Source: Acidimicrobiia bacterium (GTDB lineage Bacteria; Actinomycetota; Acidimicrobiia; Spongiisociales; UBA5794). Taken from it: a stretch of 60,889 nucleotides of DNA. How positions within the stretch are numbered: position 1 is the stretch's first letter; each line of letters begins with the position of its first letter. Location of the stretch: assembly GCA_026985095.1 (NCBI GenBank), contig JALSQW010000032.1, forward strand, positions 1 through 60,889, written 5' to 3'. The position numbers and the translations under genes are program-made. The notes beneath the pieces were generated by a model that saw only the letters and a program-made list of their open reading frames with translations, was not told where the DNA came from and searched no databases. Shown in pieces: positions 4,091 to 25,247 of the stretch.

Positions 4091-4692
4091 GTGGAGCCCG
4101 TCGGGCGCACGAAGGCGTCGCGTCGGCGTTCGACGTCGGTACGGACGGAACATCCTTCGACATGGTCGTTGACGATCCCCATGGCCTGCATGAAGGCGTA
4201 GGCGGTCGTGGGTCCGACGAAGCGGAACCCGCGCCGCTTGAGCTCTCTCGACATGGCGGCCGATTCGGGGGTGGTCGACGCCGTGGTCGGGCCCGTCCGT
4301 CGTGGCTCGAAGGACCAGAAGAACGCCCCCAGCGACCCGAACTCGTCTCGCAGCTCGACGGCCCGCGCCGCGTTGGCGATCGCCGCCTCGATCTTGCCGC
4401 GATGGCGAACGATGGCGGCGTTGCCGACCAGCCGTTCCACGTCCGACCCATCGAAGGCGGCCACCCGCTCCGGATCGAAGCCGGCGAAGGCCTCCCGGAA
4501 GGCCTTCCGCTTGGTGAGGATCGTCAACCAGCTCAGACCGGCCTGGAACCCCTCGAGGACGAGCTTCTCGAACAACGCGACGTCGTCATCGACCGGACGA
4601 CCCCATTCCTCGTCGTGGTAGCGACGGTAGATGTCCGGGGCGGTGCCCCACGGGCAGCGGGGACGACCGTCGGGTCCCGCAACGGCGATCAT
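4087..4692 (-). CDS. tag: DNA-3-methyladenine glycosylase I
   Basis: 201 residues. Tag removes 3-methyladenine from alkylated DNA. The N-terminal signature RCPWGTAPDIYRRYHDEEWG supplies the zinc-binding Cys and His, and the C-terminal NDHVEGC supplies the other His/Cys pair typical of Tag. The central helix region with LEGFQAGLSWLTIL matches the family. Its ATG overlaps the stop of the DAHP-synthase-like/chorismate mutase gene (ATGA at 4689-4692), so it is translationally coupled and lies downstream of the aromatic attenuator. That pairing with amino-acid synthesis is probably just operon packing. Confidence 0.93.
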   Translation of the reverse strand: MIAVAGPDGRPRCPWGTAPDIYRRYHDEEWGRPVDDDVALFEKLVLEGFQAGLSWLTILTKRKAFREAFAGFDPERVAAFDGSDVERLVGNAAIVRHRGKIEAAIANAARAVELRDEFGSLGAFFWSFEPRRTGPTTASTTPESAAMSRELKRRGFRFVGPTTAYAFMQAMGIVNDHVEGCSVRTDVERRRDAFVRPTGST

Positions 4693-5780
4693 GCCGCCCC
4701 GTTCTCCTCCATGGCCGCGACGACGCGGCGCTGCTCGGCTCGTGAGTGCTCGAGGATCATCTCCATGAGACGGGCGGCGAACTCGGGGTCCACCGACAAG
4801 GCGGCGGCGTCCGCACGGACCTCGTCGAGCAGCTCCGCCTCCCGGTCGGGTGAGCGCAGCGCGATGTTGCGTTGGGCCTTGATCCGACCGATGTCGGTGG
4901 CGTGGCGGAGCCGAGCCGCGACGATCTTGAGGAGCTCCCGATCGAGCCGATCGATCTCGTCCCGCAGCGCCGGGATGCCGAGACCCTCCATGAGCGCCGC
5001 GAAGTCGGCGAGACCCAGTTGGTTGCCGTTGCCGATCCGGGCGTTCCGTGGGTCGGGGTGGACCCCGACCACGAGCCCGTCGGCACCGACGGCGCGCACG
5101 GCCAGCGCCAACGGCGGCATGATCGTCGCTGCGCCCGACTCGGGCGCCGGGTCGACGATGACCGGCAGGTGCGACAGGCGCTGAACGACCGGAACGGCAG
5201 AGATCTCGACGGTGTCGGTGGTCCGGGGGTCGAAACCCCGACTGCCCCGCTCGCAGAGGATCAACGCGTCGTTGTCCGCGGCGAGGATGTACTCGGCGGC
5301 CATGAGCCATTCGTCGACGGTGGCCGACGGTCCCCGATGGAGGATGACCGGTTTGCCGGCCTCCCCCACCGCCCGAAGGAGCGCGAAGTCCTGCATCTGG
5401 GCGGCGCCGATCTCGAGGATGTCGGCGTGCTCGGCGACGACCTCGACCAGTCCGGGCTCGACGACCTCGGTTGCGGTGGGAAGCCCCGCCCTGCGGCCGG
5501 CGCGCTCGAGGATCCACAGGGCTTCCTCACCGAGACCCTTGAACCCGTAGGGCGACGAGGAGCCGAGGAACGTGCCGGCTCGCAGCACCGCGGCACCGGC
5601 ATCCGCGACGGCGTCGGCGACGGCGGCCATCTGCGCTTCGGATTCGACCGCGGTCGGACCGGCGATGACCGGGTAGGAGCCGTCACCGAACCGGACCGCT
5701 CCGACGGTGACGACGGTGGTCTCCACATCGGGCCGGCGATGGCTCTTCAGGGTCGGTTCTACGGGGCGGTCGTTGGGCAT
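4689..5780 (-). CDS. DAHP-synthase-like domain fused to chorismate mutase; DAHPS site degenerate
   Basis: 363 residues. Residues 30-255 resemble a class I-beta DAHP synthase and residues 262-350 are an AroQ chorismate mutase. The mutase keeps its catalytic set: Arg of LRDEID, Arg of AAR, Lys of GRIK, the DREAEL block and Gln of SRAEQ. The DAHPS part has lost all four expected metal ligands: GPC is GPT (Thr43), the DPSH His is Pro213, the acidic residue before VHP is Gly239, and the next Asp is Gly250. Phosphoenolpyruvate contacts KPR and LKRG are changed to LGS and LHRG. It probably works as a chorismate mutase with a non-catalytic, perhaps regulatory, DAHPS fold. GAGGAG lies 7 nt before the ATG. 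An intact DAHP synthase is encoded at 24210-25247. Confidence 0.88.
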   Translation of the reverse strand: MPNDRPVEPTLKSHRRPDVETTVVTVGAVRFGDGSYPVIAGPTAVESEAQMAAVADAVADAGAAVLRAGTFLGSSSPYGFKGLGEEALWILERAGRRAGLPTATEVVEPGLVEVVAEHADILEIGAAQMQDFALLRAVGEAGKPVILHRGPSATVDEWLMAAEYILAADNDALILCERGSRGFDPRTTDTVEISAVPVVQRLSHLPVIVDPAPESGAATIMPPLALAVRAVGADGLVVGVHPDPRNARIGNGNQLGLADFAALMEGLGIPALRDEIDRLDRELLKIVAARLRHATDIGRIKAQRNIALRSPDREAELLDEVRADAAALSVDPEFAARLMEMILEHSRAEQRRVVAAMEENGAA

Positions 5781-5819
5781 GGTCGGGCTCCTCGTCGGTT
5801 CGGCCGGCCCGGGAACATG

Positions 5820-5853
5820 AAAGGACCCGGGGCGGTGGCTCCGGGTCCTTTCG
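5820..5853 (-). terminator. Attenuator-type hairpin in the aromatic leader
   Basis: On the minus strand AAAGGACCCGG pairs with CCGGGTCCTTT (11 bp, about 10-nt loop), followed by a short T run and the 40-nt lead into the chorismate mutase gene. It lies between an aromatic-rich leader peptide and the structural gene, the position expected for a transcription attenuator. An antiterminator was not worked out. Confidence 0.75.
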
Positions 5854-5886
5854 GTGGTGTGGTGTCTGCGGTTGGTTCCCTACGCG

Positions 5887-5946
5887 TCACCTCGACCCGG
5901 GTCGTGGCCCGGTAAAGGAATAGACGTACGGGAACCGGCAGGTCAT
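5887..5946 (-). CDS. Aromatic-rich leader peptide (candidate attenuation peptide)
   Basis: A 19-residue frame, MTCRFPYVYSFTGPRPGSR, has Phe5, Tyr7, Tyr9 and Phe11 clustered in the first half. It ends about 34 nt before the attenuator-type hairpin and about 107 nt before the DAHPS-like/chorismate mutase gene. A good promoter ends 6 nt before the ATG, so the peptide would be read from a leaderless message. Scarcity of charged tRNA-Phe or tRNA-Tyr would stall ribosomes at codons 5-11. This explanation fits the downstream enzyme, but there is no experimental evidence in the sequence. Confidence 0.7.
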   Translation of the reverse strand: MTCRFPYVYSFTGPRPGSR

Positions 5947-5952
5947 GGGAGC

Positions 5953-5981
5953 AATGTACCCGGTGCCGGGCTGCAGCGCAA
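5953..5981 (-). promoter_or_regulatory. Promoter of the aromatic leader/chorismate mutase unit
   Basis: On the minus strand TTGCGC (5976-5981) and TACATT (5953-5958) are separated by exactly 17 bp. The ATG of the leader peptide starts 6 nt after the -10 box, so transcription should begin at or next to the start codon. Confidence 0.7.
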
Positions 5982-24209: not shown

Positions 24210-25247
24210 TCAGAGGGTGAGGCCCATGGCGTCGGCCAGGGCCGAGATCTGCGTCATGAGGTCGGCGAACTCGTTGGGGAGGATGGCCTGGGCGCCGTCG
24301 ACGAGCGCGGATTCGGGAGACGGATGCACGTCGATCATGACCCCGTCGGCGGGAGCGGCGACGGCGACCCGCGCCAACGGAGCGACCAGTTCACGTTTCC
24401 CTCCCGAGTGGGACGGATCGACGATCACGGGCAGGTGCGAGAGGCCCTTGAGGACCGGTACCGCCGAGATGTCGAGGGTGTTCCTCGTCGCGGTCTCGAA
24501 CGTGCGGATCCCCCGCTCACAGAGGATCACCTCGTGGTTGCCTTCCTTGTACACGTACTCGGCGGCGTTGAGCCATTCCTCGATGGTGGCGGTGAACCCT
24601 CGCTTCAGCATCACCGGTTTCGGCTGGCGCCCGAGCTCGGACAGGAGCGTGAAGTTCGCCATGTTCCGCGTCCCGACACGGATCAGATCCGCGTAGGAGG
24701 TCACGAGCTCCACGTCGCGGGGGTCGACGACCTCGGCGACGAACGGCATCTCGAACTCCTCCCGAGCCTCGGCGAGGAGTTCGAGACCCTTCTCCCCGAG
24801 GCCTTGGAACGAGTAGGGAGACGTCCTCGGCTTGAACGCGTCCCCGCGCAGGATGGTCGCCCCGGCCGCCTTGACGGCTTCGGCCGATCGGAAGAGCTGG
24901 TCGCGCGACTCCACGGCGCATGGTCCGGCGATCACCGCGAAGTGCCCTCCGCCGACCGGGATCCCGCCGACGTCCACGATCGAATCCTCGGACTGGAAGT
25001 CGCGACTGACGAACTTGAACGGCTTGAGCACGGGAACGGCTCGTTCGACGCCGGGGAACGCCTCCCAGGGGAGCTGCTGGATCCGGACCCGGTCACCGAC
25101 GGCGCCGATGACGGTTCGTTGGGCTCCTTCGGACACGTGGGCCTCGGCCCCGGCCTCTTCGAGTCGATCCAGGACGTGCCGGATCTCCTCGGGGCTGGCG
25201 CCCGCTCGCATCACGATGATCAAGGACTCGTCTCCGTTCGCTGCCAT
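24210..25247 (-). CDS. aroF: 3-deoxy-7-phosphoheptulonate (DAHP) synthase, class I-beta
   Basis: 345 residues. An N-terminal ferredoxin-like regulatory domain (1-70) precedes the barrel. The catalytic motifs are intact: IAGPCAVES (Cys110), RGDAFKPRTSPYSFQGLG, LKRGFTATIEEW, CERGIRTF, DPSHSGGKR and IDVHPSPESALVDGAQ. It condenses phosphoenolpyruvate and erythrose 4-phosphate at the first step of the shikimate pathway. It is the intact counterpart of the degenerate DAHPS domain at 4689-5780. TATCCT (minus strand, 25257-25262) lies 9 nt before the ATG. Confidence 0.95.
   Translation of the reverse strand: MAANGDESLIIVMRAGASPEEIRHVLDRLEEAGAEAHVSEGAQRTVIGAVGDRVRIQQLPWEAFPGVERAVPVLKPFKFVSRDFQSEDSIVDVGGIPVGGGHFAVIAGPCAVESRDQLFRSAEAVKAAGATILRGDAFKPRTSPYSFQGLGEKGLELLAEAREEFEMPFVAEVVDPRDVELVTSYADLIRVGTRNMANFTLLSELGRQPKPVMLKRGFTATIEEWLNAAEYVYKEGNHEVILCERGIRTFETATRNTLDISAVPVLKGLSHLPVIVDPSHSGGKRELVAPLARVAVAAPADGVMIDVHPSPESALVDGAQAILPNEFADLMTQISALADAMGLTL

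Follow-up and report, generated by a model that had tools for sequence, protein, structure and literature searches.

The window, a 60,889-nucleotide stretch of DNA from an Acidimicrobiia bacterium, contains a short leader upstream of a gene for aromatic amino acid synthesis. This leader is highly likely to attenuate transcription in a ribosome-mediated manner, with charged Phe- and Tyr-tRNA as the signals sensed. The reading draws on the leader codons, their conservation, mutually exclusive and covarying RNA pairings, a switch point found in silico and codons that depend on the target gene; from these observations we infer the transcription start site, the termination event and the amino acid response. 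Through this leader, a shortage of Phe or Tyr very probably turns on transcription of the aromatic synthesis gene. The mechanism is that of classical attenuation; what is new is its class-wide occurrence in Acidimicrobiia and an additional RNA segment, segment 5, in the copies that precede the biosynthetic gene (aro copies).

All elements of the window copy lie on the minus strand. The controlled gene (4689..5780), placed after the hairpin as a chorismate mutase gene by an earlier note on this DNA, encodes a DAHP synthase (Pfam PF00793) with a C-terminal chorismate mutase domain (PF01817) and is preceded by a Shine-Dalgarno sequence, GAGGAG (5788..5793). Further upstream, the leader open reading frame (5887..5946; MTCRFPYVYSFTGPRPGSR) carries the candidate sensing codons Phe5, Tyr7, Tyr9 and Phe11, exactly as that note had listed them. 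The promoter-like pair that it had described is likewise present: a -35-like hexamer, TTGCGC (5976..5981), and a -10-like hexamer, TACATT (5953..5958), are spaced by 17 nt, and the latter is separated by 6 nt from the leader ATG (5946-5944). The terminator hairpin (5819..5852) is built from arms at 5852-5841 (GAAAGGACCCGG) and 5830-5819 (CCGGGTCCTTTC) around a loop of 10; its stem measures 12 bp, and the 11 bp claimed earlier stands corrected. Five segments can be delineated in this RNA. Segment 1 (ACCGGG, 5908..5913) adjoins the last Phe codon and forms the 5′ side of an anti-antiterminator hairpin; segment 2 (CCGGGTC, 5894..5900) has segments 1 and 3 as its alternative partners; segment 3 (GACCCGG, 5841..5847) is both the antiterminator partner of segment 2 and the core of the terminator 5′ arm, which pairs with segment 4 in the terminator; and segment 5 (CCCGGGCC, 5806..5813) is complementary to the terminator 3′ arm. 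The window leader folds at -74.2 kcal/mol against -58.2 kcal/mol in shuffled sequences (z -3.9; 0/200 shuffles as low). The copy has its weak points, namely a weak -35 hexamer and a poor U tract after the stem, and a mechanical consensus scan of the window leader called neither a promoter nor a terminator; the case therefore rests on comparison with relatives. Elsewhere in the window, at 24237-24995 on the minus strand, lies another type I DAHP synthase gene; it is without the mutase domain, and no leader is visible upstream of it.

Orthologues of the controlled gene were taken from the family and the order, and 69 distinct upstream regions were compared. In 60 of them the leader occurs together with two hairpins, one with the conserved TTT-ACC-GGG and one resembling a terminator, so that both the aromatic codons and the stem, whose retention in relatives had been proposed as the check, are indeed kept. 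The 60 leaders hold on average 4.67 Phe and Tyr codons, and never fewer than 3, in a mean of 10.4 codons before the hairpin; Trp occurs as a single codon across the whole set, and TTT is the codon directly before segment 1 in 51 of the 60. A short reading frame rich in codons for the end products thus stands upstream of the gene for those products at 60/69 loci, and between the two lies a conserved, covarying hairpin with a U-rich tail that is clear in most relatives. The remaining regions comprise four orthologues of one genus (g8) without a leader and five of one family (f5) in which it is missing or degenerate. Segment borders were set by motif, because automatic hairpin detection at times picked segments 4:5 rather than 3:4. 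A covariance model found one significant locus in the genome of origin, the window locus itself (E 7e-18), and matches in 57 of the 296 genomes of the class. Retained in 60 of 69 upstream regions, the arrangement is conserved far beyond chance. Separately, in six loci of one genus (L019, L021-L023, L025 and L030) a small CCTCC...GGAGG hairpin upstream of the aro gene could mask the Shine-Dalgarno sequence of the DAHP synthase.

The same comparison bears on how the leader is translated. Across all 60 relatives, the leader start codon is closely preceded by a -10-like box, and a signal resembling TTG stands at about -37 to -35. Shine-Dalgarno matches before their leader reading frames score no higher than those in shuffles; the downstream gene, unlike the leader frame, does have a Shine-Dalgarno sequence in the relatives. 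The -10-like box directly next to the start codon and the lack of Shine-Dalgarno enrichment agree with a leaderless message, and the earlier suggestion that the leader peptide is read from one is consistent with these data.

Attenuation further calls for a mutually exclusive antiterminator that shares a strand with the terminator. The earlier note had merely proposed looking for one; it exists, as a pairing of segment 2 with the terminator 5′ arm, and it covaries. In the relatives' leaders, segment 2 consists of the loop plus CCCGGG, and segments 3 and 4 form the terminator arms. We compared cognate segment duplexes with duplexes of segments exchanged between species, using 29 non-redundant loci and 20000 permutations. 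The pairings 1:2 (z -8.8), 2:3 (z -7.9) and 3:4 (z -6.9) were each matched by 0/20000 permutations, and the control pairings 2:4, 1:3, 3:5 and 2:5 stayed at |z|<0.8; these covariation tests take no account of the tree, a point that the control pairings answer in part. Column covariation scores point the same way: 0.211 against 0.146 in shuffles for segments 1:2 plus terminator, with six pairs showing double changes, and 0.199 against 0.097 for the antiterminator (0/500 in both cases). Since MAFFT sets the leader loop of a few rows one column off, alignment counts understate the pairing there; the swap test does not depend on that alignment.

To these pairings corresponds a mechanism of the familiar kind. 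Transcription would begin with the A of the leader ATG or a neighbouring nucleotide, and translation would set in directly on the leaderless mRNA. With Phe and Tyr plentiful, the translating ribosome would move past TTT-ACC-GGG onto segment 2, leaving segment 3 free to form the 3:4 terminator, and transcription would stop before the gene. With either amino acid short, the ribosome would stall on codons 5-11 and cover segment 1, segments 2 and 3 would pair, the terminator would be prevented, and transcription would continue into the DAHP synthase-chorismate mutase gene. If the leader were not translated at all, segments 1 and 2 would pair and termination would again be permitted.

Folding with a ribosome footprint of assumed size masked in silico places the switch where this mechanism predicts it. 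Across the relatives, the antiterminator pairing has a mean probability, P(2:3), of 0.82-0.92 as long as the A site lies 1-8 codons upstream of segment 1; this drops to 0.20 one codon past the segment 1 start and to 0.04 two codons past it. In the window copy P(2:3) reaches 1.00 with the A site at Tyr9 or Phe11 but about 0.5 at Phe5 or Tyr7, with 0.33 at Thr12 and 0.00 from Gly13 on; given the intermediate values at Phe5 and Tyr7, Tyr9 and Phe11 may be the codons that do the sensing. A simulated ribosome stalled at the sensing codons thus frees the antiterminator, and one beyond them does not. With no ribosome, P(2:3) in the window copy is 0.00 and 1:2 forms instead. Some relatives and most of the copies linked to pheS (below) are predicted to pair 2:3 even then. 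Placing the ribosome at the stop codon gives mixed predictions.

Second covariance-model matches in genomes of the same family lie upstream of a gene that we take, from its translated product, to be pheS (phenylalanyl-tRNA synthetase alpha). These copies, found in related genera (L187-L197, L207-L220 and L242-L250), have Phe-only leaders such as VTQAPHSFRFVFTG and MRDLHRRRFSFTG: 24 of them hold 49 Phe and 2 Tyr codons, leaders within a genus not being independent, and Tyr is present in 2/24 pheS leaders against 59/60 aro leaders. The in silico ribosome switch was reproduced in ten pheS copies, although in many of them the antiterminator needs no ribosome to form. The pheS gene of the genome of origin (L237) has no leader. 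Codon identity therefore follows the target gene, and since the codons match what each target makes or uses, this argues for sensing by codons. The earlier proposal of attenuation by Phe- and Tyr-tRNA levels accordingly gains support from the conserved codons, the covarying antiterminator and the Phe-only codons of the pheS copies. A phylum-level covariance search additionally recovered four genomes outside the class (L259, L262, L269 and L273) in which a DAHP synthase gene is preceded by a terminator and by a leader containing Phe, Trp and Tyr codons (e.g., MERTYRYWFAYFGPGPA); most other out-of-class matches look like chance hits or unrelated terminators. Two further loci were noted in passing. 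At L202 (G229:C55:1077-1216), a gene that looks like a cysteine synthase follows a terminator and a cysteine-rich leader beginning MSPSTVCVCCCCRRF, an arrangement similar to the polycysteine uORFs of mycobacteria, and at L204/L258 (G140:C4:114417-114554) a leader-like reading frame, MKVNWIKYYQYAGYGAATVPAH, is accompanied by a strong terminator.

In aro leaders, the segment between the terminator and the Shine-Dalgarno sequence pairs with the terminator 3′ arm (swap test z -5.7), a pairing that is weak in the window's own copy (z -1.15); this segment 5 is absent from the pheS copies. Its mean pairing is 0.79 when segments 1-3 are engaged and 0.15 otherwise. We tentatively entertain the idea, which we regard as possible though doubtful, that the aro version works as a switch of five segments: once transcription has read through, segment 5 might capture the terminator 3′ arm and thereby lock the antiterminated state or tune translation or stability of the message. 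If so, one leader would provide two layers of control. The position of segment 5, between the hairpin and the Shine-Dalgarno sequence and pairing with the hairpin 3′ arm, also lends something to a rival explanation, translational attenuation, in which the alternative structures would gate the start of the DAHP synthase and the hairpin would not terminate transcription; the poor U tract in the window points in the same direction. Against this stand the clear U-rich tails of most relatives, the lack of segment 5 in pheS copies and the predicted access of the ribosome binding site, which differs little between states (0.47 versus 0.56). We consider translational attenuation improbable and retain transcription attenuation as the preferred reading.

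Less probable still, and by some distance, is a ligand-binding riboswitch or a protein-bound RNA element beside which the leader reading frame would be incidental. The strong conservation of the RNA motif TTTACCGGG with its hairpin would suit such an element; yet the invariant columns fall nearly all within the pairing segments, the feature that varies with the target is codon identity (Phe-only before pheS), and no Rfam match came near any gathering score. A T-box or another known RNA family was likewise rejected, Rfam having given only sub-threshold chance matches. That the small reading frame and hairpin form a constitutive leader with no regulatory role is scarcely credible given the conservation and covariation in 60 loci, the swap tests and the second target gene.

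Taken together, a probable attenuator responding to Phe- and Tyr-tRNA recurs across a poorly studied class, and is thus a new and widespread example of a classical kind of switch. For the Acidimicrobiia, which are mostly uncultured, it offers an amino acid switch that is directly testable. One RNA design appears to be reused with its codons fitted to the target, Phe only before pheS and Phe plus Tyr before the DAHP synthase-chorismate mutase gene. As a 2005 survey of Actinobacteria found no conserved RNA element at Phe or Tyr operons (PMC1262725), and Rfam offers no match, the element could be given an RNA family of its own.

Several known systems invite comparison. Attenuators at pheL and pheST of Escherichia coli are cited in PMC11802643. 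The element described here shares with E. coli pheL-pheA and pheM-pheST its Phe codons, its targets (a chorismate-mutase enzyme and Phe-tRNA synthetase) and its switching between terminator and antiterminator. Those two E. coli systems have a leader translated from a Shine-Dalgarno sequence, Phe codons only and a different fusion partner. Leader peptides on leaderless messages are on record within the Actinomycetota, at ilvBNC of Corynebacterium glutamicum (Morbach 2000, cited in PMC4046766; PMC11857589), for which a structure model with anti-antiterminator, antiterminator and terminator is given (PMC11857589), and in the mycobacterial polycysteine uORFs (Canestrari 2020, cited in PMC13236596). 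Like these, the present leader is an actinomycetotal reading frame that is probably read without a ribosome binding site; unlike it, they sense other amino acids and control other genes. The earlier note had found control of this kind at a chorismate-mutase fusion unfamiliar. Our search of open-licence papers returned no such element for Acidimicrobiia; the mechanism is less unfamiliar than supposed, since C. glutamicum has a similar attenuator at aroR-aroF. There, a leader peptide with Phe-Tyr-Phe lies upstream of a DAHP synthase gene and is reported to respond to Phe limitation (Neshat et al. 2014, cited in PMC11802643), and the attenuator was predicted in PMC4046766. With leader and RNA likened by description, aroR-aroF is the closest described system: in the same phylum, a Phe/Tyr leader (here F-P-Y-V-Y-S-F) precedes a PF00793 gene, the present element differing in that it belongs to another class of the phylum and controls a DAHP synthase-chorismate mutase fusion, the aroF product being described as a DAHP synthase.
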